Of a stretch of 64,000 bases of DNA, positions 1,156 to 63,700 are shown one piece after another (the first letter of the stretch is position 1; each line of letters begins with the position of its first letter). The notes under the pieces were generated by a model. The model was not told where the DNA came from. It searched no databases and was given only the letters and a program-made list of their open reading frames with translations. The DNA lies in assembly GCA_025526935.1 (NCBI GenBank), contig JAHLKD010000120.1, positions 89,211-153,210 of the forward strand, written 5' to 3'. Origin of the DNA: Cladochytrium replicatum. Its lineage: Eukaryota > Chytridiomycota > Chytridiomycetes > Cladochytriales > Cladochytriaceae. The position numbers and the translations under genes are program-made.

Positions 1156-3924
1156 CTATGTGTACAGCTTGACCGTTGTATCAGCACCTGAACTAAATAA
1201 CCACGGTTGCGTTGGATGGAACTCGCAGTTTAGTGCCCCTGCACCTTTTGTCAGCTCGATCTCAAATACAAATATATGCACAAACCTAAGCTGTCGACCA
1301 CTGAGTGTCCATGGATCCGTTTAACAGGAACAATCAACGGTTGTCGCATGAGGTCGTTGTATACCATCCCGTGGAAAACGTTGACATCTCCATCATCGCC
1401 CACACTCGCGAACAGTGGGTAACGCTTGTGGAACCGAACACTTCGAATAGCTTCTTTGTGGTACCGCAGGGTCTTGAATGGCTTTGTTGAGAGGTCCAAA
1501 TCAAACCAGGCAAGTCGTCTATCGTAGCTCCCGACAATGACGTTATCACCTATCATGGTAACCTTAGTATTCGACCCAACAACACCGACGTTGTAATTTT
1601 ATGTACCTTCGGGATGTACATCAATGCTAGATATCCACTTCATTCCCGTGATCAAGGTTTTTGCCAGTTCTTGCTTAAGGAGATTGTAGACCAGCACGTA
1701 ACGTTGAGTCTACAAAAGTTGTGCATAAGCAAATGTTGTCACGGGATTTTTAATGACCACTTACTGCAACAAACAAGAAGGGCTTTGTTGGATGGAAAAG
1801 AACACACTGGACCATTCCTTTCGACTTTCGGAACGGAGATTGTGATTGCCTCTTGGAGATCTGATGAATCTTCACAGCACTTTGTCCAGCTGGAGTAGAA
1901 AATATTCATTGTTAATGTTCTGAATGTTGTCGGATTTGCACATACCTTCTGGTGACACTGTGACCAAGTAATCTCCTCGCCGATGCCATGAGATATGAGT
2001 TATTGGCTTTTCGTGGGCGATCTTCATGAGTTCCACAGTCTTCTGTTTCCCAGACAGTTCAACCGAAACCCACTCGCAAGCAGAAACTCCTATGAGCGCC
2101 AAATTAATATGAAATGGTGAAGCAGAAGGTAGCGTACTCTCTGATGCCGATGGGGCAGTATGTACGAATTCTTCTGTCAACTTTCGAATGCTGGCAGAGC
2201 CGATCTTCGGAGAGCAGAGGAACAGCGTTTCCCCACTGTTCACACACGGATGAGAACTGCAGATATACTACGTTGAAGCAACTCACCTGGCCACTGCGAG
2301 CAAGGCGTGGTCTTTGTTGGGGCTCCACGCAACTTGCATAACAGCCTTCGATCCCAACGCAATTGTCTCCAGACAGCGGCCAGTAAGCACCTCCCAAATG
2401 CGGACAGTCGAGTCCTCAGAACCTGAGTAAAGAATAATTGAACATTCTTTGATAATGATCCGTCGCATCAAATTTACCAGACGCAAGCCATTGTCCATTA
2501 GGGTGCACTGATATGCTTCGAACCCTGCCTTTGTGACCAACGTAGACCACTGCCTCTCGTTGAGGGAAAGGCCGAAGCTCGTTGGGATCGGGCAGTTTAG
2601 GAAGAAGCTTTTCAACGTCTGTGTGGATCTACAAAGCAGTCAGCATCCAGTTTATCAAGTAATTAATCTAAGTACCTTCTTGGCTTGAACTCGGGGGCAG
2701 AGATACAAATCAAGGCACCGCTCGAATCGTTCCTGAATGAACCTGTTGTACGCTGGGACCTTGCGAAGGCTTGAATACCTGAAAAGTAACGCTGTCAAAT
2801 CATACCGCTAATGCATGTTCCGAACGTATACTTTTGGGGAATGAAGTTTCGCTCACGATCTTCAGGATGAGCTTCGGTCCAAGCTTTCTTCTCCTCCTCC
2901 GACATAAGGTATTCCGCTGGAGGATTGTATGAAGCATAATGATCCGGAAGTGGCATCCTCGTCGCAGGCAAATGCCGGAAGCGCTTATCCTCTCCAGCAG
3001 TATCTCCTTCCCCAGACCATATGTCGTACAGCGCCGGTTTCAGAGCATCGTCCAACTTCGGTCGCAGCCGACCTGCTCGAATCGCTCGTACGATTTTCAT
3101 AATCTAGAATTTCCGTTGAAGTTAAATTAAGAGCAGACAATGGCGTTCCTACCTTCTTTGCTTCCCATTTTGAAGCTGCGAATCTTCGTTTAGGCTCGGG
3201 AGCAGCACTGAGTGGAGTCACAGATGTTTTGCTAGTAAACCATTCAATGGTGGGCTATTCCATCATAACGTGAAAGTGAGAAACACAAATTTCACCAAAA
3301 CAACAAAGAATCGTACTGCGTAAGGATCTACATCAAGCCCAAAGTTTTTGTTCTCAATGCGTTTCAGCAACTCCAGTTCGTTCTTGCTGAGTGCAACTGT
3401 CGCCCCAGTACGCTTATCATAAACAGATTTCCTGCATGGAATTTCCGTTAACATGCACACATTTCCACTGCCACATTTTTGAAATACTCACAAGAGCGTT
3501 GGATCATCGAGCTTGGCTAAGAGAGAATCCAGCTTGTCTCCTTGCGCTGGCTTCATGATCTTTTTTCCATGAATGTCGTACCCGATGTGGGGCAATTCAT
3601 CGTACCACTCGATTGGTACATTTCCGATGGTGTTTTCTGTTTCCTGTTTGACAGAGCCACGATTGCGTAAGAACTTGCAGTTCCTAAGAATGTATATCAC
3701 GGTTGCCGTACCTCGTCTGAAGTGTCGCTGTCGTAAATGGGGTCGATTTCCGGCTGTTGCGCATCCTCCTCTGATTCTTCGTTCTGGGGTCCCCAAGCCT
3801 CCGGGTCCATCAGCTCTCCAGCAAACAGCTCATCGATATTCACAGGCTTGGTCTCTGAAGGAGTAGTTTCCTCCTTGTTCGACAGATCCGGCTCTTCGTC
3901 CACCGCAGCCTTTCGTTTCCCCAT
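1156..3924 (-). CDS. ERB1: Erb1/BOP1, WD40 ribosome biogenesis protein (PeBoW complex)
   Basis: Erb1/BOP1 acts in the nucleolus with Nop7 and Ytm1 in 27S pre-rRNA processing and 60S assembly. The product starts [13 protein letters not shown] at 3924, followed by an acidic segment. The BOP1NT domain follows, with the hallmark stretch [20 protein letters not shown], then KIMKPA, and later [19 protein letters not shown]. The second half holds WD repeats, for example [18 protein letters not shown] and [17 protein letters not shown]. The C terminus ends in a WD blade ([12 protein letters not shown]) before the stop at 1156-1158. The frame is broken by about eight short GT-AG introns. The first is 3644-3711 (exon 1 is exactly 71 codons), and the second joins DPTLL to KSVYDKRTG. 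The gene end is only 53 bp from the end of TFC3 upstream; both run the same way. Nothing looks disrupted. Confidence 0.93.
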
Positions 3925-3977: not shown

Positions 3978-6900
3978 TTACAGGATAGTCTCCAGCGCTT
4001 TTCTGGAATCCACTTGACGCACTTTAGCAAACCAATTGAGTTCTGGATACACAGAGACACTTGAATTCTCACTGTCACCCCCAAAATCTGTGATATCTTG
4101 AACTGTTGGGAGTTGCATTTGTCAAGACTTTTTGGTTGTAGTGTAGTACTCTTACCTTCGATAACATCATCAGAATCAGAATCAAACAAGCTCGCATAAG
4201 ATGTTGGAACATTCATGATTCTCTCTGATATGGCACCAATACTTCTGAGCACTTTCACAATAATGTTGATCTCAACAGAATTCATGATTGTGTCCAAGTA
4301 AACAAGCAAGTTTGACTACACAAAAGATCAGCAAAAACACAATACTGGGACATTATATTTACCTGCTGTATTCCAGGACGCTGGACAATAACACTCATTG
4401 TTGCATCTAAGCAAGCAACAAAGACATGCTCCACAAAGTTTCCATTGATGTCAAACCAGACTTTTGCAGGAACCCTTCCTCTTTCAACCACACGATCATG
4501 GAGTGTCGAATTTACTGTTTGTGCTTTAGCAAGAGTCCAATGTACATTGTTCAGACATGTTACGTATCGTGGATGATCAAACCCAACTTGATAGAGCAGA
4601 GGAGATAAATTGGATGTCACATGCAACAGTCGCATAGTTTCAATTGCATCTTTAAGATCTGAAGGAGAGGCCTCATCAAAATTCTCCTGTTTCTCCAAAG
4701 ATTAATGATTAAATTGCTGAAAAGCATTATGTCTACCTTCAGGTCCTCTGAGAGTGCACCTAATGGGCCACAGCTTCCAATATAATTGAACACTTTCCAC
4801 GCAAGATCTCTTGTTGATTGAGAATGAAACAAACTTTGTAACATCTCCTGTACATTCTCTGTTTCGGGCCTTGAAGTGTAGCGATCAACAATCTGCTGAA
4901 TTTGGGCATTATAATCTGATTGTCTTTCAGCAAAATGACCAGACTCAAGATTATCTGCGGTCCGAGGAGCTGGTCTTAAAACAACATCGAAAACTGCAAA
5001 CTCTGCATAAAAACAATTTAGATAGAATTCTTTCACCAACATAACGGTCATACTATTCCATTTACTGCGAAGCCTAGTACGAGCACTATCAGCATTAGAA
5101 GTGAGCAATTGCTGGAAGTCCTGGAAGCGAGGAAAGGCAAGCATCCTTTTTGAAACAAGTAGATCAAGGACACTTGCAACCACACCACCCTCTGAGAATG
5201 GAGAGAACACATGTTCGCGTACAGCAGTCAACATTATTAGATCCTTCCAGCTGACAGTCGCTTGTGTGATAAGTTTATCAGGCAGCAGCCCTCTGACTGT
5301 GTTCAAAAACCTAGAATATCTGTTGGAAAAAATTCATGTTGAAACAATCTTATAGTACTTGTCTGACAACAGGAATGCCCGCCCAGGGATGTGTCGATCT
5401 GAACCACCTTTAAGTGTTGAAATTGTTCCTTGCTTTCTCAGATCTTGTAAAGCTGTTGATATGATTGGTTGAGGAAAGCTGTTCAGAACAAGCCATGCGT
5501 GCTTTGCATCATATGATTGATCAGGTGTAAGAAGTATCATCTGAAACATGCAGGTTAGCACACATGAGACCGCAAATATTTCTTGGTAACCTTTATGAGA
5601 GTCTTCACAACTTGGACTTGAATTTGTTCAATGTTGATGTTATGGTTGAAATGAAACTTTGGTTTAACTTGACTGAAATTACAAGTCAATCCAGAAGAGT
5701 TGAGCAGAGCAATTCGGGCAGCACTGCTTTGACATTCTCGTAAAGAAATATGAAGAGAGTGAGTATTGCAAGATTCTGATTCACCATCTGCAACTGCTGT
5801 GAACATGTTCTCAATGTCACCTACGTTTAACAATAGCTTATGTTGTTTATGAATTGATCCCATTTCACTTAGAGAAGTGTATCAGATAAACATAATACAG
5901 AGAAGTATACGGTGCTGATTCTCACCCCTTATGTTGCTCCTCCCAGTTTTTAACAAACTCAACATAAGGACCAATGTCCATTTCGTTTCGAACTTTTGCG
6001 TAATTTGAGACTGGCTGGAAGAAGTTTCCTTGTAATCCTTCCTCATATATCTGTGACCTGAGTTTTATCAGTTTTTCAATACGTTCTCTCACAACCAGTG
6101 ATTTCATGAGAGTTAATACTCGATTCTTGCAAATAGTTTTGCCCTTCAAAGTTGCATGAACTTGAGCTGAGGTTTTTGCAACTTCTTTCTCAACAGGGTT
6201 CCATAGGAAACGTGATGTATGTCCAAAGTGTGAAACAACATAAGCATACAGCAGGGTCTTATCTTCTTCTGGTGTCCATGAAAATCTGTGTCGCTCATTG
6301 TACTGGGTCCTAATATCATCGACGTGACTAACTACTGGAAGTGCTTCATTTGCTGGACCTTGTGAAATGTTTTCTCCAAATGTACGTGAAATGATTTTTT
6401 TAACACGTCCTCTGATTGCTTTTAAGTTTTCATTGCTTTCAACATTGCTTGAAACTTCGGGTTGAGGTTCTGCTGCCTTCTTTTTCCGCTGCCTGCGTGC
6501 TTTTGTTGGCTGCTCCTTAAGGGCTCTGAGCAAGAGTCGACGTTGATGTGCATCTTCAATCCGTTTGAAGTAGAAGCACACTTTTGGAATTGTCAAGTTC
6601 ACTTCCTCTGCAATCTTTTTGATCTGCCACATATTACCCAAAGGAGTAGTTCCCTTTTTGCGGTTGCAATGGCTCTCAAGCACTTCACGTTGCTCTGAAG
6701 AAAAATTGAGGAGTGGAACCCAGTTGCGCTTAAGTGTGATAAACTGTAATAGATCACTAAGATTATCTGAAATCTGGCTCCTTTCTGACAGAATCTCCAC
6801 ATGGCTGCTGGTTTGCTTAATGCAAATGTACTCAAGTTGCACCCAGTATTGTTTGGCTGTTTCAATGCTGGTGATGGTACAGTAGCGCAGTAGAGGTCGC

Positions 6901-9900
6901 CCTGGTTGTCTGTAATCTTTCAAGGGGACGCGTTGCAGCAGTCTGTATTGTGAATGTAGTTCTGCATTATTGTTTAATCTTCTTGAGATTTGGGTTTCAC
7001 TAACTGACTCTATGAGCTGCAATGCCTTCAGCAATTCAACCAGCTGGAGCAAGTATCTCTTGAATTTGTATATCTTTTTTGGCCCAAATGCAAATTCACG
7101 TATTTCATTTGGAAGTGCATTGAGTCTCATGTTCATGTTTCCATCTTGCTTAATAAACTCATCAATGATGGGTGCTTGCTCCCAAACACCAATGCACTTC
7201 ACAAAAACTTCAAATGTCATTTGCTCAAAAACTCTTGCAGTTTCAATAATCCCAGAATTTGAAAAGCTATTGTTTGTATCACAGCTTCCAAATTGATCTC
7301 CTTCAAAAGAGTTTGATGGAACAACAACAAGTGTCAACAAGAATTCATGAAGAATCCTTGCCCTCGAAAACTTTGCATTGACCCAGCCATTCTGAACAGA
7401 TAATTCAATCTTGTAATCTGTTAATGTCTGAGTATTTCGTTCTTCAGTATTGTCAATATACTCTGATCGCTCTTTTCGCTGCTTCTTGACAACAGGTTCG
7501 GCATCCATATCAATATCTCCCAACATGGCAATTGACATATCTCCACTTTCAGCAAGTCGTTTCTGTATGTCTGCAAGTCTCTCAACTTGTACTGATGAGT
7601 CTAAAACAACATGTTTTGTCATAGTTTTTGCATTAAATAAAACATTCCTTTCTGCTATTGCTTCTACAAATTTGTTAACTGACGGATCATCATGATTGAC
7701 GCTGGGATGAAGAAGTAGCCGCTTGACAGTATTTTGACCAGTAAGCAGTGGAATAGTTACTAGCACAATTTTGAGGGCTCCTTCATCTCGTAGTGACTCT
7801 GCATCACGTGTGATGGTTTTGCGATCTAAGGCATATTTTGATATACCTGTTCCAGCACCTTCTGCCCTCTCGCGCACCTGCTGGCCAAGTCCACTTGATA
7901 ATTCAAGGATCTTCTCTTCATTTAGAATCTCAACAAGATACTTTCTTCGTTGAACAGCATTTATGCTCAGTGCTACTTTGGAAGCAGGAACTGTTTTATC
8001 AAATGTGAGTTCCACTATTGGAAGAATTAGCTACTGTTTGAGAACAAGGACAAGCATTTACCTGTTATTTTTGGCATTCCTGAGTGTGACTGCTGGTGTG
8101 CTGCTATTTAATAATTATTTAGGGGAAATGTTTAAGATGATTGATGATGCAAACCTTGATGACGAGCAACTTCTTGCTGTGAACATAAAGGGGAACAAAA
8201 CCAACTCCCATCAGGAACTTCAAGAAGAGGAGGATTAGCACAGTAAATGTGCAACCCAGAATCACAGTTGTCACAAAGCAACATTGCTACTGCATCGTTT
8301 TGTGAGCCACAAACTGAACATGAAACATCTTGATAAGCTGATCCATCTCCTGTGTTTATATCTGTACTATGCTGGACCTCTGAGGTATGACATTAAGAGG
8401 TTGATCTTCTTTGTGTATTTTAATAAATACCTGTGGGATTATCTATTTCCATTGAATTTTCTCCACCACTTGGAACATCTGGCAAAGCACTAAGCTCTGC
8501 ATTTCCAACAGAGGTTGAGTTGACTGGGCCATCTTTGGCTTCAAGAAACATCCTGTAACCATCTGCAGTAAAGTATCTGAATCTTCTCTCCTTTCCTGCA
8601 TACTCTACAATTCTCACTCCTCCTTTCGAAGGCGGTGTGTTTGGATTTTCAACAGGACACAATTTTGGCAGCATTTTTGCAAGGAGTCTACCAGAAATGT
8701 TACTGAGTGATTGTTGAAGATCCTGATTAATTAACAATTTAAACAAAAGGTACATTTCTTTGAGTTCTAAATCCTTACTGAAGAAGTAACTCCTGCAGCC
8801 CCACCAAGAGTAATTATACGAAATACTTGGGATTCTAGAGACAAATCAAGTAGGATTCCTTCATTTCCAAATTTAACCTTTGGCTCTTTTGCTTTTGAAG
8901 CTGCATGTTTTGTAGCGAGCTCGTTGGTTCTTCCAGTGTAGACCTTGAGAAGCCGTATACAGCGATCGTAATATGTTCGATTTTCTTCTTCCCTTGCTAC
9001 GGAAATTCTCTCAACGTGTTCACTTTGAACCAATCCACTGACCATCCTGTTGAACCATTTCCTATGTGTTGGCTTGAATCTCTAAAACAAAGAAATTGTT
9101 AAGTGACCCATTCATTTTTGAAAATACTGCTGTCAGTACCAATGCAATAAATATATCATTTGCAATCATGATATGATTGTGTGCCTGACTCAACAATCCA
9201 GTGAGCTGCATACGAAATGTTTCGACTTCAAATGACTGCGTGTTCTTTCCGGTCTCAGCAGCAGAGCCCAATGAATCGCGGAAAGGCACAGTGTCAAAGA
9301 GTCTTTTCTTTTCAGAATTGTTGTTTGGAGTAGAAGCACCAAGAGACCCTTGCTGATCTTTTTCTGGGGGCTTGAGGAAGCGGGTAGAAATGCACATGTT
9401 GGTATATGATGAATTCTGAACAACTGGGATTTTGACCCTGATGGATTCATAATTAGATGGACAAAGAAGAACTTGCGATAACTACCGCCTTACACTAGTT
9501 TGAGTTCACAGAGACGTTTGACGTAATGAAACATGGATCGTGGATCAATTCCGGAAGCCTTTGACAGCTCTGCTTGAGTGACGCCCGTTCTGCGACCTCT
9601 GATAATAAGCTGCAGCAACTTTCTCTGGATATCGCCCTTTGAGTCGATCTATTCATATGATGCTAAGAATTAAAATGAACACTAATGATCAGTGGACGTA
9701 CCATTGGTTGCCCTCCAAATATGTGAAAGCTCTGAAAATCTTCGCTTGCGACGAGCTTCAGATTATCTCCATATGTCGCGACAACCTGACCGTAATTCAT
9801 CCCCATCAAACTCGCTTTCTCTTCGCCGATTATCTCGGTTAATCCCGCCTGAAAACACCTCCTTCGTCAGTTCAAGTATTCCATGTCCCATCATTACAGA

Positions 9901-10332
9901 TGTCGCTAACCGAAGGCGGACCAGTGTCTTCCTCGTCGTCAACTTCGCTCCTCTTTCTTTTAGTCTTCTTTTTCACCACCGGCGCGGCAACGTTGCCGTT
10001 GCAAAGTCGAATATCACGTAGGGATCGAATGGAGGGCCAAAGGTAAGACTGCATCGCCGGATCGATCGTATCAGCTCTCGCTAAAGGCTAAATTAAGAAA
10101 ATTTCATACACTGAGTGAAAAGGCTTACGCTGTAACCCACGATCATTTCCTTGTTCGTCGCTGTTGATTTCAGCATAATGAGGACCCAGGAGTTCCCACA
10201 ATCGTTGGAGTGTGCACCCTGAAATGGTAAAAACAAGTAAGTTTCGTCCAAGCCCAACTGTACAACCAATGGCATACCGCTTTCTCCCTCCGTTGCAATC
10301 TCCTCCAGTGCGGCTTTCACCAGCTCGTCCAT
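3978..10332 (-). CDS. TFC3: Largest subunit of TFIIIC (Tfc3/GTF3C1 family, B-block binding) with an inserted PHD finger
   Basis: Tfc3/GTF3C1 binds the B block of tRNA gene promoters to recruit TFIIIB and RNA polymerase III. The gene has about a dozen exons. I start it at ATG 10332 (MDELVKAALEEIATEGES); the open frame upstream has no ATG. After an intron the product continues CTLQRLWELLGPHYAEINSD, typical of the family N terminus. Next come a basic tract (KKKTKRKR), a winged-helix segment (RRTGVTQAELSKASGIDPR, B-block type) and a second winged-helix region. A PHD finger (8155-8349) follows, then an extended helix-turn-helix (ALDRKTITRDAESLRDEG). A Tfc3-type SANT-like region is seen near RFSWTPEEDKTLLYAY, and a long C-terminal domain ends the protein. 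An intron near 4110-4155 restores the frame to end ...SRKALETIL before the stop at 3978. The PHD insertion is not something I know from yeast or human members. Confidence 0.88.
8155..8349 (-). other. PHD-finger-encoding exon of the TFC3 gene
   Basis: This exon lies between two GT-AG introns and is in frame with both neighbours. Upstream, ...MEIDNPT joins to GDGSAYQD; downstream, a 42-nt micro-exon (8062-8103) leads into VELTFDKTV. It encodes a full C4HC3 zinc ligand set: CSVC, CDNC, H-x2-C (HIYC) and a final pair spaced C-x3-C (CSPLC). It also carries the typical PHD stretches LLCDNC, NPPLLEVPDG and WFC. PHD fingers usually read histone H3 tails, so the finger could tie TFIIIC to chromatin; that role is inference. 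The unusual point in the domain is the C-x3-C final pair, where C-x2-C is more common. Confidence 0.85.
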
Positions 10333-19752: not shown

Positions 19753-21426
19753 ATGAAAAATCAATACAAAATCATTTTTATGAGCACTGCCACACGCATG
19801 CTGTGCAGCCAAACCGCACCAATCGAAACGCTCGACAGAATCTTGCTGTGTCTGGGCAACGGTGCCCACGCACTACAGGACAGAGTGCTGGCATTCAGAC
19901 TGGCTGTGCACTTCAGGAGAAATTACGTAAAGGCATGCCTAGTCAGCTCAATCCCCGCGCTAGCCATCGACAATGCGTGTGCCCGCGGAAATGTTGATTT
20001 ACTCGACCTGCATTTGAACTCGCCAAACAAGCCAGAATACACGGATGACGCTATCGACTCAGCATCAGAAAATGGCCACAGACATGTTTTGGATTGGTGG
20101 GTGCAAAGCGGTCTCGACTTAAAGTACACCACGAAGTCAATTTTTTGCGCGTGTGCCAACGGACATCTCGACATTCTAGACTGGTGGTCCACGAGCGGTC
20201 TCGAATTCAAATATGATGTCCATGCGATGAATGAGGCGAGCGGGAATGGGCATGTGCACATCTTGGAATGGTGGAAGCAAGGTGGTTACGAGCTTCAATA
20301 TTCTATAAACGCGATACACCGACCGTGTTTCTTGGGACGTGTCGATGTCTTGGATTGGTGGAGATCAAGCGGGCTCCCCTTCAAGTACAACATGTACGCT
20401 ATGGGTAACGCAAGCTCCGAAGGTCATCAGAACGTTTTGGAATGGTGGCTTGCAAGCGGACTTCAACTGAAGTGGAATGCCGAAGCAATCGATGCAGCAA
20501 GCCAGAACGGTCATATCCACATTTTGGACTGGTGGAAGTCCTGTGGACTCGAACTAGTGTATACCTCGGCTGCCATTGATGGTGCAACCTGGAGGGGCCA
20601 GATCGAGGTCCTGGACTGGTGGAAGACTAGCGGCTTGGAGCTCAAATGGTCTTCTGAAGCGATGGATGAGGCTAGCTTCGTTGGTCGTCTTGAATCCCTC
20701 AACTGGTGGAAAGAAAGCGGGTTGGAATTAAAATGGACGTCCCGGGCAATGGAAGGAGCGAGCGAGAACGGCCACATCGATATTCTCGAGTGGTGGAAGA
20801 ACAGTGGCCTAGATCTTAAGCTTGAAGGCCACTCCGTAGGTCAAGCAAGCAGGAACGGCCACGTCGGGGTGTTGGAATGGTGGAAAGTTAGCGGATTGCC
20901 TTTTCTTTACACAGACTATGCTTTGGGTATAGCGTGCGTCACTGGGCAAGAAAAGGTGTTGGAGTGGTGGAAAAACAGCGGCCTCGAACTAAAGTACTCT
21001 CACAACACGATCGACAACGCAAGTGCATATGGGCACCTTCACTTATTGGAATGGTGGAAATCAAGTGGGCTAGAGCTGAAGTATTCGGCCGAAGCCATGG
21101 ACTATACGTCCGATCGGGGTCATATTCATGTTCTGGAGTGGTGGAAGAACAGCGGCCTGGAGTTGAAGTACTCTCACAACACGATCGACAACGCAAGTGC
21201 ATATGGGCACCTTCACTTATTGGAATGGTGGCTGTCCAGTGGGCTTGAGCTTAAGTGGTCTAGCGATGCAATGGACTTTGCTGGTGCTCACGGACATTTG
21301 GATGTGCTTGAATGGTGGAAGAAGAGTGGATTGGAATTAAAGTGGACTCAAAATGATATGCCTGGGATGCGAATGGAAGTTCAGGATTGGTGGAGGGCAA
21401 CTGGACTCTGGAGTGATGTGGATTGA
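19753..21426 (+). CDS. Intronless protein of 29-residue ankyrin-like 'WW' repeats
   Basis: This 557-residue protein is one open frame. ATG 19753 is used; ATG 19780 (MSTATRML) is equally possible. After a roughly 90-residue N-terminal region (PIETLDRILLCLGNGAHALQ), the remainder is built of about 15 units of 29 residues. The unit pattern is A.(D/N).AS.NGH...LEWWK.SGLELKY; 16 WW motifs were counted. The NGH...LL.WW core resembles the second helix of ankyrin repeats, but the period is 29, not 33. Such proteins are probably protein-binding scaffolds. The last unit decays to QDWWRATGLWSDVD before the stop. It is divergent from the ABP2-like gene, with 143 bp between the starts. The lack of introns contrasts with all neighbouring genes and hints at retroposition, transfer or rapid family expansion. 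Confidence 0.8.
   Translation: MKNQYKIIFMSTATRMLCSQTAPIETLDRILLCLGNGAHALQDRVLAFRLAVHFRRNYVKACLVSSIPALAIDNACARGNVDLLDLHLNSPNKPEYTDDAIDSASENGHRHVLDWWVQSGLDLKYTTKSIFCACANGHLDILDWWSTSGLEFKYDVHAMNEASGNGHVHILEWWKQGGYELQYSINAIHRPCFLGRVDVLDWWRSSGLPFKYNMYAMGNASSEGHQNVLEWWLASGLQLKWNAEAIDAASQNGHIHILDWWKSCGLELVYTSAAIDGATWRGQIEVLDWWKTSGLELKWSSEAMDEASFVGRLESLNWWKESGLELKWTSRAMEGASENGHIDILEWWKNSGLDLKLEGHSVGQASRNGHVGVLEWWKVSGLPFLYTDYALGIACVTGQEKVLEWWKNSGLELKYSHNTIDNASAYGHLHLLEWWKSSGLELKYSAEAMDYTSDRGHIHVLEWWKNSGLELKYSHNTIDNASAYGHLHLLEWWLSSGLELKWSSDAMDFAGAHGHLDVLEWWKKSGLELKWTQNDMPGMRMEVQDWWRATGLWSDVD
20994..21231 (+). repeat. Exact 64-bp coding repeat, 174 bp apart
   Basis: Bases 20994-21057 and 21168-21231 are identical over 64 nt, including synonymous positions. 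The spacing of 174 bp equals two 29-codon units. The other repeat units differ at many sites, so this copy is recent or gene-converted. Confidence 0.95.
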
Positions 21427-53495: not shown

Positions 53496-56400
53496 GTATC
53501 GCCAGAAATGACAGATGTCTGCAATATTCCGCATGAAGCCAAGACTAAGATATTGTTCCCAAACAGTTTTGTACCATTCTCGAGCTGCCTGGTGTAGACC
53601 ATACAGACTTTTGATAAGTCTGCAGACAATGGGCCGATTCCGGAAATCTACTCGTCCGAAACCATGTGGGAATTCAACGCAATTCTCTTCTTCCAGCATT
53701 GCATTGAGATATTCACCCTTGATATCAAACTGGAATATGATCATGCCGACTAATGCTGCTAATGCAATCAGAAAACGGATCGTTGACGTTTTCGTAACTG
53801 GAGAATAGGTTTCATCGAAATCCAATCCTTCAATCTGTGAAAATCCTCGTACGACCCAACGTGCTTTGAATCGAGTAATATTGCCATGTTCGTCAAGCTT
53901 GTATGTAAAACCCATTTGCCCGATAATGAATTCTGTCCATCAGGTAAAAACGTTTCGGCCCAAGTATTGTTGCCGACTAGTTGTGTGACTTCCTCCTTCA
54001 TCGCCGCTAACCAGAATGGAGCCTCATCGGATCGTGATAAAGCCTCACGAAGAGTCTTTGGTGCAGTCCGTATATTTCCATTCGCAATTGGTTGTGTTGG
54101 ATATGAGGAATCGGCCTTCAGGGTCCAATTGATATTAGGAACGGATCGGGTAAATAAGGAATTACGTTTCTTTTTGGCGTTCGACAAATGTGCACTTGCT
54201 TGGAGTTTTCGTTTTCTTGCTGCATACGCTTCATCGGCATCTTCTCCAATGAATTGAAGATCACGTTCGAGTTGTGCATCATATTCCTCTACAGGAGATA
54301 CAGAAGACAAATTCCGAGATTCTTCAGTAATGGATTGTGGAGTGGATAAATCAGCATTTGGATCGTAATCAGCATCGTCTGGGTCATCATCGTCTAGTCC
54401 ATGTAAATGTTCAACAACATGCATGTCACCGGCTTCTTCTAAGCGGTAATATATGGGGTCGTCGCTCGAATCCTCATCGATTTCTTCGTCTGCAACGGTA
54501 GAAATCGGGAAATTGTCTGAGACAAACTCAACAGTCGTCTCTTGCACCTCCTGATCTCCGGTTGGTATTTGATCAACATCGAAATATGTCCCGGCCTTCA
54601 GTGGATATTCTACCGTAAGATCGTCGAGTAACTGTCGGGTAGGATTATAACCAACAAAAACTCCCTCGTGGAACGTAACATGGAAGTATTCGCCTATTGT
54701 GTTTGTCCGAAAATTGAGTGCTATGACGATCTTCAGGTCTTCACCCTTGTATCCGAGAAACAGACCTAGTTCAGACTTGTCTCGGATTCTGCGCGCCAAC
54801 CTTTGTTCGTGTGAGATCCACAAACTAACGAGTGTTCCAAAGGCGTGGATAGTTGCCAAATCTATCCGCTTGTCAAGGTAAGCACAGTACGGAATCGCAT
54901 TCACAGCTGAATGGAAAGTAGCGTTCTTGACGACTGCAGCGTATAGGATGGAGAGTTGCACGAATTGAAGTGTTCGTGGTAGTCCAGCTTGTAGCAGCAT
55001 CGCGTCCGACATATACTTGATCGATTGTATATTCCGCTCTGGTAGACCATCGAGTTCCTTTACTGACGGAGGAGCTGGGTGGACGCGGATGCGAGGAATC
55101 TTGGTATTGCACCATTGGATCAACCGTTTCGTAATCAATTCTCCTGAATCACAACATAGTTCAGCAACGTGTAATGGGTGATTGCGATTTTCCACATCAG
55201 CGATATGTCGAATCATACTATCCACCGCATCACTCTTTCGATTCAGGAAGTAGATTGTGATGAAACGAGGTTGTTCGTCGACAATGATCTGCCAATATCT
55301 CTTCTTCTGTCCGTCGTAGATTAAACGTACGACATCGGAAAACAGACGGAAAAGTTTCCTCGGAGCTCGACTTATTGTAGAATAAATCAGCTTCTGCTTC
55401 AGCTTCGTGCGACTACAGACCAAACAATTCTGCATAATTGATTTGTTGACAAGATTGAATGCATCCGGTTCAACCTTGGGCATTTTGATGTTGAGCTTCT
55501 CTGCCGTTCGAAAGATCGTCCGTAAGTGGATGTGACCAAACTGCTGGTGTAACTTTGCAAGTTCGTGTACTGTCACTGGCAATAAGTTGGTGCTCACTCC
55601 AACTGTATCTTGAGATGCTCGTTGACATTCATCATCGTTCATTTGACGAATGCTGTTGTCTGACATTACATCGAGACCCATCGCGTGAGAAGATCGTACA
55701 CCGGACGTAACGTCCATTGACTGATCGAGACCTTCTGCGGATACCGCTACTGCTTTAGCTCGTTGAGCAATCACATGCCGTGGTTGGTGAGTTCCGACGG
55801 TACTAACATCAGCATAGAGATAGTACAAATCTCTTTCCCGTCGCCCAATAATAACGTGTTCATCCGTATCACCATGCGTGAGGATAACCTTGTCTTTGGT
55901 GAAACTCACAATGTCCCCGGAGTCTCCAATGATACTACACACTGATGCAAGTGTGTCTTCGAGATCAGGAACATAAAGTGCGTTGTGTATTATCTTAATT
56001 CGCCCATTGGGTAAAACTACAGATACATCTCCAAAACCACAAACTGGAATTGTATGACTATCCGCTAGTTCCACCACGTCCTCGTCATTCGTATACGTCA
56101 GCGAACTAAAGGCATGACGATTAGGTGTCATCCAAACAGTTGCGCCTGTATCAAGCAAACCCACACGATCCTTTGCTTGAACATGTACACGGACAACCTT
56201 CTGTGCCGAGTGTGCGTTCACTATCAAAAACATATTTCCGATGTATGTGTCAGCATCTTCATCAACAGAAGTAGGTTGGGTAAGGTCAAAGATTACCTTC
56301 TTGGTCAACACCGGTTTGGCAGTAGACTCGTCCTCCGACGAATCATCACCTGCATCGCCACGGCTGGCAATGAATGCACGAAAATCCGTGTCTAAACAAA

Positions 56401-56883
56401 GACTCTTTGCAGTGAGATAGCGTTTACACGCTGACTGCTTGTGTCCTCGTTTGCCACAGAAGTTGAAGTTGCATGTGAGATCTGTCTTCTTTGCAGAAGA
56501 AGATGTGGACGACCTGGAGTCCTGCGACTGCCTGGTCTGAGTGGAACTGCTACTCCCACCGCTACTGCTTGAGCCACCCAAGGCACCCTGCTTACGGCAT
56601 TGAGCATTGGTGTGAGACAAGTTTGGATGCAAGGTACAAATATCCTCCGACTTCGCAACCTTGGCTTTCGCTTTCGCCTTCGCTTTCTTCGCCTTTGCCT
56701 TCATGGCCTTCTTTGTCCCATTAGGCCCACCGGCATCCATGGTGACATTGAGTTGGACCAGGTCGGTCAAGATATTTGACACTGTTTCGAAGTAATGCGT
56801 TGGCTTTTGGTGGAATGGTCGGGGAGCATTCGGATTTGCAGCATCAATTGGATCTTGTATTAACGCCGGTTCCCATTCGGCAT
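53496..56883 (-). mobile_element. Ty1/copia family A element, minus strand, truncated at both ends
   Basis: One frame of 1043 codons (53768-56899) covers the gag C terminus (EWEPALIQDPIDAANPNAPR), a zinc knuckle (FCGKRGHKQSACKR), protease (VGLLDTGATVWMT), pre-integrase HHCC (HQQFGHIHLR...CLVCSR) and the integrase core. The core acidic residues lie in IIVDEQPRFITIYF, CCDSGELITK and LPERNIQS. An acidic linker follows. A one-base loss near 53913 shifts the RT start; RT continues FKARWVVRGFSQIEGLDFDE to IADICHFWRY, where the B-type LTR has inserted. The 5' end is cut at about 56883, where family A sequence stops and unrelated sequence supplies MCMHQH. No own LTR is seen. Confidence 0.9.
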
Positions 56884-57339
56884 GTTGATGCATGCACATA
56901 TATGGAACTAGCTACTCCAGTCTTCATCCACTACCGACACTGAGGGGAAATAGCCTTACCAGAGACGTCTGGGACAAGTTCATGCGTAATCATACATTAC
57001 ATGAAAGAACTGGCATTTCTAACTATTGGTCATGAAGACATCCTCCTTTACTCATTGGAATCTAGTAGAGTTCTGCGAGTGATCACGCGTTTGAGAAAGA
57101 ATGTGATGCTAATCAGTTTGCTGCTGACAGTTATATCATACTCGAGTACATCTCGTATGATATTAATGCAAGGTACTACATACTTATTTCTCATAGAGAA
57201 CATGTCATTGTAGACAAGATTATAGCTAATCTTCATGTTCTGCTCACAATGCTTATTGTGAACGATCACTGGGATCTATATCTCTCTATTCGAGAGAATA
57301 ATGTTTATATTAGATATTTCCATATATCTATAGCCACAG
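56884..57339. other. AT-rich spacer between inverted copia copies
   Basis: About 450 bp holds only short frames and no match to the families A or B coding parts. It may be remnants of LTR or older insertions. No gene is called. Confidence 0.4.
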
Positions 57340-58890
57340 GTTAATTATAAAAGCCGAAACGACAGTATATTTGAATTGTTTGCACAATTCAAAGAGCCTG
57401 TGGCGATATGAGATTTCGGGTGGCTGTGGCGCGAGAGCGTGATTGGAGAAACACGAAACTCTGCACCTACACAGATCAACCTGAGGACTATCTCTAGCGC
57501 AAGTCCCAGATCAGCAGCACTAAAACTGATCAAATCACATCGCCCTCAAACCAAACTTCGACAACCACAAGCAGAATTTCTGCAGGAAACGCAAACTAGC
57601 CAAAAGTTTGAATGATGAGGAATGGAAACAGATAAAAGCATCTCGTGCTTCCTCCTCAACATCCCAGAACATGGATATCGATTCTCAGGAATCAGAACCT
57701 TCCAGCAAGGTACAATCAATCAAATCCTTCTCTTCAATCTTCAAAGCTAATAATATTGTGGATTTTACACATCCCTCTATTATCACAGCATTGAAGAGTA
57801 CCAACTGCAATCTACACGTAAATGCCAAACCTCTCGGTTTGATTGACTCTGGTGCTTCTGCTTGGATGACTCCAGACAGACATGCATTCAAGAATTTATT
57901 TTACGTTAATGATGCAGGAGATGTTTACTTGGCAGACAATCATCCCATTCCTATTAAAGGCTATGGAGATATTGCACTTGTTTTGTCAAATGGTTCAATA
58001 AAACACATTCAAAATGCACTTTTTGTTCCCGATTTAGAGGATACACTTATATCTGTCTATAGCATCATCGGGGATGAAGGTGATATAGTCAGTATTACCA
58101 AAGACAAAGTGTATTTGTCAAACAAAGGAACTGAACAATGTGTTACCATTGGTTTAAGACGTGGAGGTTTATATTATCTTCATGGAAGTTTGGATACTAC
58201 TAATCCATTCCTTAAACACTCTTCCAAAATAGGTGCAGCTATTTTGACGAATCTTTCTAATTCTGCACTCTCTGTTGGCAAACAGAATGTTTTACCTTGT
58301 ACCACTACAAACACTGCCCAAGAGCAGCAGACAACCACGTCTGGTGTAAGGTTTGACACAGTGAAGGACAACAATGTTTTCCCAAAAGATTCTAACAAAA
58401 CTAGAAATTACGGGGGTGAAGTTTTAGACGGAGCTTCATCTGCAACATTAAGTCTGTACTCCCAAACAATGGCTGATAATGGAGTAAACAACGTTTCAGC
58501 TGTGACCATCAACAAATTAGCTAGATTACACCAGCAATTTGGTCACATACATTTGCGGAAAATCCTGCAAACTTTACATTCTCTGGGAAAGAAACTGCCC
58601 AAAGTCAGGAGTGATGCACTTGATTTTGTTAACTCGTCTATTTTACAGAACTGCATAATTTGCAATCAGACTAAGGCTGTACAAACTCCAATTTACTCAA
58701 AGCTAAGTCCAGCACTGAGGAAATTATATCGCCTACATACTGATGCAGTACCAATTGTCCGAAATGGCAAAACAATAGGTCACTGGCAGATTATCGTAGA
58801 TGAATACAGTTCTCACATCACAATCTACTTCTTGCAACGAAAGAGCGAAGCCTCTGATAGTATGCTAAGACACATCGCAGATGTTGAAAA
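57340..58890 (+). mobile_element. Family B copia fragment, plus strand: LTR remnant, protease and integrase
   Basis: An LTR-tail-like piece lies at about 57346-57410 (AAGCCGAAACGACAGTA, then GAGCCTGTGGCGATA), similar to 59318-59365. From 57580 the element reads QEFLQ-type nucleocapsid end, LNDEEWKQIKASRASSSTSQ, protease (LGLIDSGASAWMT), the structured protease-to-integrase stretch (VFPKD), pre-integrase (LHQQFGHIHLRKILQ...CIICNQTK) and the start of the integrase core (HWQIIVDEYSSHITIYF). The frame is open 57608-58909 but has lost gag and everything after DVEN, where the 58891 LTR inserted. The rest is transcription-incompetent. Confidence 0.85.
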
Positions 58891-59450
58891 TGTTAAGTAT
58901 TTCGATTGATGGACTTGGCCAATCCAGTCATTGATAGTACAAAAACACAAACGCCCGATATACAGAAATGTCACTCTTCACTGAGCAACATTTCTAACTA
59001 TTGAACTAAAGCATATAGATGATGATCTATTACGAGTTTGGATACCTCCAGTTATTTCTTCATGGGTTATATTTATTGCGGCCATAGGTATAGTAAACTG
59101 TCATTACTTTTCTATCATCCACTTGTAGAAGTGAAGCCCGGATCAGATCACAGCAAAGGTTTACATATGATTAACGCGTTCGTGGGAATCATGTGTGAGA
59201 ACAATCCTGTTGAGGAGAGCTAGATCTCACGCACAGCTTAGCATGATTATGCTTCGCTACGCCTGTGAGAAGAAGAGTCAAACCTTATCGCTTCGATCCA
59301 GATCTTCCGGAAGGAAAAGCCAAAACGACAGTACACTTATTTAAGGAGCCTGTGGCGATACACACAAGGAGCATTCTCTTGCGCTAGTACTTGTGACTCG
59401 CAATCTTCTTTATTCATCTCTTAGAAACATTAACCCGTGAATTAGCAACA
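58891..59450 (+). repeat. 560-bp copia LTR, plus orientation, with a 283-bp extra segment
   Basis: It starts TGTTAAGTATTTCG and ends GAATTAGCAACA, matching the 275-bp LTR at 53221-53495 on both sides. About 283 bp (roughly 59028-59310) are extra here and carry no other homology that I can see. It interrupts the integrase frame of the family B element right after the codons for DVEN. The following word ACACAACCTGAGGATCCAGA is shared with the other copy and would include the primer-binding region. Confidence 0.85.
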
Positions 59451-59540
59451 CACACAACCTGAGGATCCAGACCACAGCTTTGTTCAACACAATAGTTACG
59501 AATCGTTGCTTAACACATTTCTTTGGACAACAACGACAAG

Positions 59541-60770
59541 ATGGGTTCAGGATCGAATGACACCACATCTTCGCGGCCGAAGCCATTCACCGGTAAAACG
59601 CTGCAGGATTTCGATCTGTACATGGAACAAGTGCAGACTTACGCAAACTTACGTGGCGGCGCTGGCACTATGCTTCTCCAAGAACCAATGGCTCTTCCTG
59701 ATAATCCGAATTACGAGGCGGAAGGAAATCGCCCACAGCGTCCGATAGTCATCGCCGGAGCTGCTGGCGGAGCTGCTAACGAAGCACGAGCACAATGGGA
59801 AGCAGAACTACGTGAACATTTGGCGATCGTCACACACAACAGTCACTTACGTACGCAATATCGTGCTGAGATGCAAGATTACCGTGCACAACAAGCGGAC
59901 AATAACGTCGCAGTTGGAATTCTATGCGAATGTTTCCCAAAACGCGACATGAATCGAGTCAGAGCTTATGCGTCAGCAAAAGGCAAAGTCGATGGACTTC
60001 GCCGAATTTTCAGTGCTGGCGGACAAGCTCCGATCGAATCGTCTATGTGGGAGCAACGGCTGGTAGATCTGAAATGTACGAACGGTCAGTCGGCAGAAAG
60101 CGTTCAGCAGTTTGTGACCGACCTCACTGAGTTATTCGAACTCAAACTGAACTCTTTACCGGACGAACTCGTAATCAAGGATCTACTAAACCGGTTAGTC
60201 GCAAAAATCACGATGCAGACAATTGAACTACGGACCCTCGTACCTTTTCTCGGAAAAATGATCACTTCTGCGTATGCCGAATGGGAACCGGCGTTAATAC
60301 AAGATCCAATTGATGCTGCAAATCCGAATGCTCCGCGACCATTCCACCAAAAGCCAACGCATTACTTCGAAACAGTGTCAAATATCTTGACCGACCTCAA
60401 CCAATTGGTCCAACTCAACGTCACCATGGATGCCGGTGGGCCGAATGGGACAAAGAAGGCCATGAAGGCAAAGGCGAAGAAAGCGAAGGCGAAAGCGAAA
60501 GCCAAGGTTGCGAAGTCGGAGGATATTTGTACCTTGCATCCGAACTCATCTCACACCAATGCTCAATGCCGTAAGCAGGGTGCCTCGGTGGCTCAGGCAG
60601 TAGCGGTGGGAGTAGCAGTTCCACTCGGACCAGGCAGTCGCAGGACTCCAGGTCGTCCACATCTTCTTCTGCAAAGAAGACAGATCTCACATGCAATTTC
60701 TGTGGCAAACGAGGACACAAGCAGTCGGCGTGTAAACGCTATCTCACTGCAAAGAGTCTTTGTTTAGACA
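59541..60770 (+). pseudogene. Family A gag (frame lost at the zinc knuckle)
   Basis: Starting at ATG 59541 (MGSGSNDTTSSRPKPFTGKT) the frame encodes the gag/UBN2-like capsid region (FDLYMEQVQTYANLRGGAGT; MWEQRLVDLKCTNGQSAESV; NSLPDELVIKDLLNRLVAKI). Then come EWEPALIQDPIDAANPNAPR and the lysine-rich linker. One G is missing near 60583 relative to the minus-strand copy. This throws the zinc knuckle (encoded near 60690-60740) out of frame until 60770. The family B gag is a distant homologue (HWEDRFKALACSNGEDALEV against MWEQRLVDLKCTNGQSAESV). Confidence 0.85.
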
Positions 60771-63700
60771 CGGATTTTCGTGCATTCATTGCCAGCCGTG
60801 GCGATGCAGGTGATGATTCGTCGGAGGACGAATCTACCGCCAAACCGGTGTTGACCAAGAAGGTAATCTTTGACCTTACCCAACCTACTTCTGTTGATAA
60901 AGATGCTGACACATACATCGGAAATATGTTTTCGATAGTGAACGCACACTCGGCACAGAAGGTTGTCCGTGTACATGTTCAAGCAAAGGATCGTGTGGGT
61001 TTGCTTGATACAGGCGCAACTGTTTGGATGACACCTAATCGTCATGCCTTTAGTTCGCTGACGTATACGAATGACGAGGACGTGGTGGAACTAGCGGATA
61101 GTCATACAATTCCAGTTTGTGGTTTTGGAGATGTATCTGTAGTTTTACCCAATGGGCGAATTAAGATAATACACAACGCACTTTATGTTCCTGATCTCGA
61201 AGACACACTTGCATCAGTGTGTAGTATCATTGGAGACTCCGGGGACATTGTGAGTTTCACCAAAGACAAGGTTATCCTCACGCATGGTGATACGGATGAA
61301 CACGTTATTATTGGGCGACGGGAAAGAGATTTGTACTATCTCTATGCTGATGTTAGTACCGTCGGAACTCACCAACCGCGGCATGTGATTGCTCAACGAG
61401 CTAAAGCAGTAGCGGTATCCGCAGAAGGTCTCGATCAGTCGATGGACTTTACGTCCGGTGTACGATCTTCTCACGCGATGGGTCTCGATGTAATGTCAGA
61501 CAACAACATTCGTCAAACGAACGATGATGAATGTCAACGAAGCATCTCAAGATACAGTTGGAGTGAGCACCAACTTATCGCCAGTGACAGTACACGAACT
61601 TGCAAAGTTACACCAGCAGTTTGGTCACATCCACTTACGGACAATCTTTCGAACGGCAGAGAAGCTCAACATCAAAATGCCCAAGGTTGAACCGGATGCA
61701 TTCAATCTTGTCAACAAATCAATTATGCAGAATTGTTTGGTCTGTAGTCGCACGAAGCTGAAGCAGAAGCCGATTTATTCTACAATAAGTCGAGCTCCGA
61801 GGAAACTTTTCCGTCTGTTTTCCGATGTCGTACGTTTAATCTACGACGGACAGAAGAAGAGATATTGGCAGATCATTGTCGACGAACAACCTCGTTTCAT
61901 CACAATCTACTTCCTGAATCGAAAGAGTGATGCGGTGGATAGTATGATTCGACATATCGCTGATGTGGAAAATCGCAATCACCCATTACACGTTGCTGAA
62001 CTACGTTCCGATTCAGGAGAATTGATTACTAAACGGTTGATCCAATGGTGCAATACCAAGATTCCTCGCATCCGCGTCCACCCAGCTCCTCCGTCAGTAA
62101 AGGAACTCGATGGTCTATCAGAGCGGAATATACAATCGATCAAGTATATGTCGGACGCGATGCTGCTACAAGCTGGACTACCACGAACACTTCAATTCGT
62201 GCAACTCTCCATCCTATACGCTGCGGTCGTCAAGAACGCTACTTTCCATTCAGCTGTGAATGCGATTCCGTACTGTGCTTACCTTGACAAGCGGATAGAT
62301 TTGGCAACTATCCACGCCTTTGGAACACTCGTTAGTTTGTGGATCTCACACGAACAAAGGTTGGCGCGCAGAATCCGAGACAAGTCTGAACTAGGTCTGT
62401 TTCTCGATACAAGGGTGAAGACCTGAAGATCGTCATAGCACTCAATTTTCGGACAAACACAATAGGCGAATACTTCCATGTTACGTTCCACGAGGGAGTT
62501 TTTGTTGGTTATAATCCTACCCGACAGTTACTCGACGATCTTACGGTACAATATCCACTGAAGGCCGGGACATATTTCGATGTTGATCAAATACCAACCG
62601 GGGATCAGGGGGTGCAAGAGACGACTGTTGAGTTTGTCTCAGACAATTTCCCGATTTCTACCGTTGCAGACGAAGAAATCGATGAGGATATAAACGACGA
62701 CCCCATATATTACCGCTTAGAAGAAGCCGGTGACATGCATGTTGTTGAACATTTACATGGACTAGACGATGATGACCCAGACGATGCTGATTATGATCCA
62801 AATGCTGATTTATCGACTCCACAATCCATTACTGAAGAATCTCCGAATTTGTCTTCCGTATCTCCTGTAGAGGAATATGATGCACAACTCGAAAGTGATC
62901 TTCATTCATTGGAGAAGATGTCGACGAAGCATATGCAGCAAGAAAACGAAAACGTCAAGCAAGTGCAAATTTGTCGAACGCCAAAAGGAAACAAAATGTC
63001 CTTGTTTACCCGGTCCGTTCCTAATATCGATTGGACCGCTGAAGGCCCGATTCCTCATATCCAACACAACCAATTGCGAATTGGTAAATATACAGACTGC
63101 ACCAAAGACTCTGTCGGGAGGCTTTATCACGATCCGATGAGGTCTCCAGTTCGTGGTTAGGCGGCGATGAAGGAGGAAGTTACCACAAACTAGTCCGGCA
63201 ACAATACTTGGGCCTGAAACCGGTTTTTACCGTGATGGACGGAATGTATTATCTGGCAAATGGGTTTTCACATATAAGCTTGACGAACATGGCAATATTA
63301 CTCGATTCAAATCACGTTGGGTCCGTACGAGGATTTTCACAGATTGAAGGAGTTGGATGTTCGATGAACCTATTCTCCAGTTACGAAAACGTCCACGATC
63401 CGTTTTCTGATTGCATTAGCAGCATTAGTCGGCATGATCATATTCCAGTTTGATATCAAGGGTGCATATCTCAATGCGATACTGGAAGAAGAGAACTACG
63501 TCGAACTCCCTCATGGTTTCGGACGAGTAGATTTCCAGAATCGACCCATCGTCTGCAGACTTATCAAAAGTCTGTACGGTCTACACCAGGCAGCTCGAGA
63601 ATGGTACAAAACTCTTTGGAAACAATATCTCAGTGTTGGTTTCGTGCGGAATATTGCAGACATCTGTCATTTCTGGCGATACAATCCAACAAATAATACC

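Follow-up and report, generated by a model that had tools for sequence, protein, structure and literature searches.

In Cladochytrium replicatum, the gene predicted to encode the largest TFIIIC subunit (TFC3/GTF3C1) contains an in-frame exon for a PHD finger, positioned just before the eWH domain. In our main reading, to which we assign a probability of about 0.55, this is a Tfc3/GTF3C1 whose linker carries a cage-less finger that would be spliced in, folded by zinc and able to bind the histone H3 N-terminus beside the B box. The arrangement appears to be a new combination of known parts, with a function that we infer. Table 1 gives the coordinates within the window, i.e., the whole stretch of 64,000 nucleotides that was analyzed.

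Table 1. Predicted features of the TFC3/GTF3C1-like locus, in window coordinates; splice scores are those of the position weight matrix described in the text.
Feature	Coordinates	Strand	Details
TFC3/GTF3C1-like gene (largest TFIIIC subunit)	3978..10332	-	1830 aa from 17 predicted exons when the PHD exon is 195 nt
Exon encoding the first portion of the B-block_TFIIIC winged helix	9494..9648	-	PF04182, 46.7 bits
Exon preceding the PHD exon; covers the close of the N-terminal part and the beginning of the linker	8431..8722	-	residues 407-503
PHD exon, longest in-frame version	8155..8379	-	225 nt, phase 1-1; in frame also from 8361, 8349 or 8346
PHD finger core	8192..8320	-	43 residues from the first Cys, Pfam match; contig 97402-97530
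Predicted micro-exon	8062..8103	-	42 nt, phase 1-1; 39 nt with the second NAG; donor 8061 scores 6.0, acceptor 8103 scores 2.2
Large exon after the PHD exon and micro-exon, starting near eWH_GTF3C1	5926..8014	-	PF24101, 50.4 bits (frame 5922-8030)

The exon model runs from an ATG at 10332 to a stop at 3978 and was set by GT-AG borders and reading frame, with all splice joins predicted; the product lengthens to 1840 aa if the 225-nt PHD exon is used, and the shakiest join outside the PHD region is at the 39-nt intron 5358-5320. Pfam profiles matched the spliced protein in the order WH_GTF3C1_N (PF23704; residues 1-38, 36.6 bits, cut-off 27, covering only positions 1-38 of 101), B-block_TFIIIC (PF04182; residues 160-228, 67.7 bits, cut-off 22), PHD (residues 514-556), eWH_GTF3C1 (PF24101; residues 599-705, 50.9 bits, cut-off 30) and DUF6581 (residues 1266-1490, 99.6 bits, above its curated cut-off). 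An earlier, sequence-only reading of this DNA had described an otherwise standard Tfc3 gene and had proposed a profile search of the translated product as a check. The search returned the PHD and the other profiles all above cut-off, and the description was borne out by the content and order of the WH_GTF3C1_N, B-block, eWH and DUF6581 matches. DUF7599 reached 31.2 bits (cut-off 27) when the frame at 8767-9081 was scanned alone and is absent from the whole-protein table.

Direct similarity to solved TFIIIC subunits is weak. With the finger removed, the protein had a single PDB match in phmmer searches at E <= 0.1, human GTF3C1 (8cli_A, E 1.2e-6), which is built of weak stretches, the best of them with an i-E of 0.019; the first 667 aa of this finger-less protein yielded no matches up to E 10, yeast Tfc3 included. 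The 702-aa frame of the gene had no relatives among bacterial and archaeal genome contigs or viral contigs, as expected for a eukaryotic gene. As PF04182 also gave above-cut-off matches in 4 of 14 prokaryote controls, single weak matches mean little, and the identity of the gene rests on the domain set. In the 50.5-Mb genome, one match apiece was obtained for the B-block domain, the large-exon frame and the PHD region. Judged by domain content and order, the minus-strand gene is a genuine single-copy Tfc3/GTF3C1 orthologue.

Several other genes lie in the window. On the same strand, a BOP1/ERB1-like gene (about 1156-3924, minus; low end placed by eye) starts approximately 50 bases past the TFC3 stop and has a BOP1NT match at 2795-3103, and an Anamorsin-like gene occupies 177-1103, minus (Anamorsin_N, 91.2 bits). 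A single open frame of 557 aa at 19753-21426, plus, contains ankyrin-like repeats in which the motif WWKxSGLELK recurs. Copia-like gag-pol frames fill 53768-63160, with two near-alike copies in opposite orientation (53768-56911, minus, and 59514-63160, plus; judged by eye) and a divergent third frame between them (57530-58909, plus); Pol_BBD matches were found in two of the four frames scanned.

The finger itself is well supported by profile scores. Translated alone, the PHD exon frame matches PF00628 at 44.6 bits (E 1.4e-11), and the match within the whole spliced protein is 38.5 bits, against a cut-off of 24 in both cases, in agreement with the earlier claim of a complete PHD finger exon inside TFC3. 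The match ranks third among at least 24 PHD matches in the genome, while the PHD profile had no matches in 14 control genomes. A loose C4HC3 pattern run over all six frames of the window matched once, at the PHD exon, and never in 40 base shuffles. All eight candidate zinc ligands are present (C514, C517, C529, C532, H537, C540, C555 and C559), and seven of the eight cysteines in residues 421-720 are PHD ligands.

The claim that all C4HC3 ligands are encoded thus holds for the eight residues, with the qualification that the last pair is C-x3-C instead of C-x2-C, which is unusual for a PHD finger. Pfam aligns the exon as far as profile position 45 of 47 and leaves off three residues short of the last Cys, whose codon (8183-8185) lies just beyond the match, and phmmer alignments drop out of register at this last pair, with the first seven ligands in register with BAZ2A. 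The same C-x3-C end is seen in one of the ten other fingers of the genome whose ends were compared, that on contig C104, and we therefore regard it as a variant and not a broken finger. An AlphaFold2 prediction for the 74-aa finger, run on the single sequence without an alignment, had a mean pLDDT of 43. Overall, the finger, its frame and its place before the eWH in TFC3 are clear features of the predicted protein.

The exon borders were scored with a position weight matrix trained on 13 introns outside the PHD region (39-62 nt). The sequence-only reading had placed a 195-nt PHD exon at 8155-8349; its location and frame stand, on the minus strand with phase 1 on either side, and its start is the lowest-scoring of the five acceptors tried. 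Starts at 8379, 8361, 8349, 8346 and 8337 give exons of 225, 207, 195, 192 and 183 nt behind introns of 51, 69, 81, 84 and 93 nt, with acceptor scores of 1.4, 3.4, -1.4, 3.7 and -1.0, respectively, and all five preserve the frame and the whole finger. Length favors 8379 and score favors 8361 or 8346. The case for 8379 as the preferred start, made by length, is weakened by these two in-frame, higher-scoring acceptors. The start is decided by neither length nor score, since the matrix was built from 13 introns and, in leave-one-out scoring, its training acceptors span -4.6 to 9.3. As every version holds the finger, the choice leaves the odds of our main reading unchanged.

The micro-exon said to follow was likewise recovered in frame, with a 39-nt alternative to the 42 nt originally given; a tandem acceptor (NAGNAG) lies at 8100-8103, and both lengths keep the frame. 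Between 8460 and 7990, the PHD exon (8154, 6.3) and the micro-exon have the top two donors, and the top acceptor is the one preceding the eWH (8014, 8.7). Whichever form of the PHD exon (none, 195 or 225 nt) is paired with whichever form of the micro-exon (none, 39 or 42 nt), all nine products stay in frame. Since neither cassette disturbs the frame, forms of TFIIIC with and without the finger are both possible in principle. Read-through of 8154-8015 would end the protein after residue 585. Codon scores were 0.03 for the PHD exon, -0.36 for the micro-exon, 0.22 for the large exon and -0.32 to 0.27 for the other exons; coding bias lends the PHD exon and micro-exon no support, and the PHD exon is not set apart from background.

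Searched against the PDB, the finger matched 73 sequences at E <= 0.001, and the best of 60 were CHD4, ATXR5, BAZ2A, DPF3, BAZ2B and KDM5B. A Trp two residues before the zinc His marks PHD fingers with an aromatic cage. Five other fingers of the genome (C27:299774, C27:50587, C6:554327, C90 and C38) have this Trp, and the TFC3 finger has Gly at the position. With cage-less relatives and this Gly, an H3K4me3 reader is unlikely; the TFC3 finger is predicted to be cage-less, with the H3 N-terminus in unmodified form, and not H3K4me3, as its likely ligand. In a gapless alignment with BAZ2A, the TFC3 finger has Val, Gln, Ala, Val and Asp at the positions of V1677, G1685, D1688, E1689 and D1695, respectively; the acidic contact to K4 (D1688) is lost, with Ala in its place. 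With Ala, Val and Gln at the positions of D1688, E1689 and G1685, H3 binding could be weak or lost. ATXR5, the second PDB match, has Pro-Ser at the D1688-E1689 pair, and its finger reportedly reads H3K4me0. The residue numbering was carried over from the residues named in PMC4291147, where D1688 is described as the acid contacting H3 K4 and where BAZ2A and BAZ2B are given a Kd of approximately 2.5-4 uM for H3 K4 and K4me1 and of 20-28 uM for K4me3. KDM5A/B PHD1 and AIRE are described as favoring H3K4me0, and among 31 H3-binding PHD domains 18 prefer me3, 10 prefer me0 and 3 prefer neither (PMC6979384).

The position of the finger can be compared with the layout described for yeast tau138, in which WH4 spans residues 334-416 and the eWH residues 550-640 (PMC11724288). 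Disordered stretches on both sides of the yeast eWH are thought to allow varied spacing between the A and B boxes, and loss of the eWH is lethal (PMC4490372). The TFC3 finger sits where tau138 has its disordered linker, just before the eWH, in a spot that would tolerate changes in length and lie near B-box DNA. This linker position makes a tethered reader plausible, as a nearby nucleosome could be reached with the winged helices undisturbed.

The sequence-only reading had further stated that the yeast and human subunits have no PHD finger, and the sources consulted agree with it. The tau138 domain list in PMC11724288 consists of winged helices with nothing else named, and the paper's main text never uses "zinc" and has "PHD" once, as "PhD program". 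In the aligned segment of human GTF3C1, residues 502-723, there is no C4HC3 pattern, from which it follows that the finger is not needed for TFIIIC in general. PMC10781861 mentions a zinc finger domain in human Tau138, but the main text of its cited source, PMC9961906, contains neither "zinc finger" nor "PHD" and does not bear the remark out.

For the origin of the exon, 12 of the 23 other listed PHD matches were compared as potential donors (the 11 left out were near-duplicates and several weak matches). The five best local matches among these 12 same-genome fingers were 39-55% identical. By BLASTP the best was the C104 finger (C104:18254; 39% over 59 residues), barely ahead of C31, C69 and the KDM5-like C6 finger, and phmmer ranked the C6 finger first. 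The C104 finger is not an obvious exon donor, having a phase-0 intron before it and none behind (judged by eye); it lies at 1700-2395, minus, of the C104 locus L019. Phases of the PHD exon and micro-exon are symmetrical, 1-1. This gives the exon shuffling proposed in the sequence-only reading only a weak hint, since an exon entering a phase-1 intron in frame needs such phases in any case.

The genome contains both the H3 substrate and a predicted writer. Histone H3 is identical to the query over residues 1-37 at two loci, a Set1-type N-SET match reaches 32.3 bits (cut-off 28.3), and a gene with two PHD fingers on contig C6 is KDM5-like, named by resemblance only. Taken together, these make H3K4 methylation likely in this fungus. 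IFT57 above cut-off and strong Chitin_synth_2 (PF03142) matches of up to 756 bits are together in keeping with a flagellate fungus; of 14 prokaryote controls, IFT57 matched 3 below cut-off and Chitin_synth_2 matched 4 above it. PHD and chitin synthase matches often occur as near-duplicate pairs on separate contigs (C6/C28, C69/C31, C27/C55, C27/C56, C30/C3 and C5/C8), perhaps reflecting divergent haplotypes or partial genome doubling, and TFC3 is single.

Alternative explanations differ in which step of our reading they deny. If the PHD exon were rarely or never spliced in, it would be a cassette relic within an intron of an ordinary TFC3. This is consistent with the preservation of frame upon omission of the PHD exon, the micro-exon or both, and with acceptor scores before the PHD exon of just -1.4 to 3.7. 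We consider it very unlikely, because an unselected exon would hardly retain eight ligands, an open frame and a 44.6-bit match; in addition, skipping both exons requires a 416-nt intron (8430-8015), compared with 39-62 nt in the training introns, and the PHD exon donor outscores 12 of the 13 leave-one-out training donors. It would be more improbable still that the exon is part of another gene sandwiched between two TFC3 halves, or that the locus is mis-assembled, as the B-block and the large eWH exon were each found once in the genome and flank the finger in the order expected, no Met precedes the finger in the PHD open frame, and the neighboring same-strand exons lie at distances of 51 nt downstream and 51-84 nt upstream.

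The finger could also be real and translated and yet have a role in structure or in protein-protein contacts, docking for instance the WD40 subunits tau60/tau91 or a remodeler, instead of reading histones. Replacement of the K4-contact acid and its neighbor by Ala-Val fits such a role, as does the report that on arrays with more than 100 PHD fingers just 31 PHD-containing domains bound the H3 N-terminus (PMC6979384). We regard this as possible but on balance unlikely, given that the nearest sequence relatives are mostly H3 tail readers and that the finger retains the LLCD strand, the Asp following the third Cys and the Val two residues ahead of the first. A further alternative concerns age and is compatible with either function: the exon may be old in the TFC3 of zoosporic fungi, or older, and have been lost in yeast and animals. 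We hold this to be a realistic option at somewhat below even odds. The gap of 133 residues between WH4 and eWH in yeast (PMC11724288) is roomy enough for a former finger, and the comparison covers a single genome; against it, the aligned human segment preserves no C4HC3 trace and a symmetrical exon also fits insertion into an intron.

Returning to the H3-binding reading, the proposed sequence of events is as follows. The PHD exon would be spliced into TFC3 mRNA, and the finger would fold around two zinc ions with C-x3-C as its last knuckle. It would then bind the extreme N-terminus of histone H3, preferring K4 that is unmodified or low in methylation, and TFIIIC sitting on a B box would thereby also hold a neighboring nucleosome through the finger. 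This suggests that a tRNA gene factor of a flagellate fungus may contact nucleosomes directly, and the finger would then link tRNA gene recognition to the state of histone H3. A bolder and doubtful extension is that TFIIIC in this lineage is a histone reader whose B-box subunit holds the unmodified H3 tail of a nearby nucleosome as its winged helices grip the tRNA gene, that cassette splicing yields reader and non-reader forms, and that access follows the local H3K4 state. Such a dependence on H3K4, if true, would bear on access to tRNA genes or to extra-TFIIIC sites.

In the listed titles and abstract openings on TFIIIC, Tfc3 or Pol III together with PHD, no report of a PHD finger in a TFIIIC subunit was found, subscription papers and genome annotations being outside the scope of that search; as far as we have seen, a reader domain in GTF3C1/Tfc3 has not been proposed before. 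A review of Pol III chromatin describes active human tRNA genes as mostly bearing H3K4 methylation, and its main text uses none of the words "reader", "PHD" and "bromodomain" (PMC11346459). The class of the TFC3 finger predicts unmodified K4 and not K4me3, which is the reverse of the simple expectation. A finger in the B-box subunit, which is real in sequence and would surprise Pol III specialists, offers a direct test case for whether TFIIIC can sense H3 tails.

Among known systems, the cage-less fingers of BAZ2A/B, KDM5 PHD1, DPF2/3, CHD4, UHRF1 and ATXR5 are the closest in type, as the top PDB relatives and in having Gly, not Trp, two residues before the zinc His. BAZ2A has the same ligand spacing up to the seventh ligand, and the TFC3 finger differs from it in the C-x3-C last knuckle and in Ala-Val replacing Asp-Glu. 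The plant ORC1 BAH-PHD (PDB 5hh7, among the matches), which is said to read the unmodified H3 tail, is a comparable case of a PHD finger within a subunit of a core DNA-binding machine in one lineage; ORC1 is a replication origin factor, and its PHD finger, unlike that of TFC3, is nested in a BAH domain. The PHD finger of TAF3 in TFIID is likewise a reader within a general transcription factor, as the TFC3 finger may be, but TAF3 is an RNA polymerase II factor that reads H3K4me3 through an aromatic cage, whereas the TFC3 finger has no cage. Yeast tau138/Tfc3 and human TFIIIC220/GTF3C1 share with the Cladochytrium protein the N-terminal winged helix, the B-block winged helix, the eWH and a long C-terminal part, and differ from it in that no PHD finger before the eWH is named in the yeast domain list or seen in human residues 502-723. 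A whole extra domain in a TFIIIC subunit of one fungal lineage has a precedent in the histidine phosphatase of tau55 in S. cerevisiae and other hemiascomycetes, although this is in another subunit, has an enzyme fold and is apparently uninvolved in Pol III transcription (PMC10781861). Finally, human GTF3C1 is said to acetylate H3K18 (PMC9961906, citing other work), so that connecting this subunit with H3 is not in itself new. The same subunit would act on the H3 tail in both organisms, in human as a writer activity, with no PHD finger named in that source, and in Cladochytrium through a candidate reader domain.
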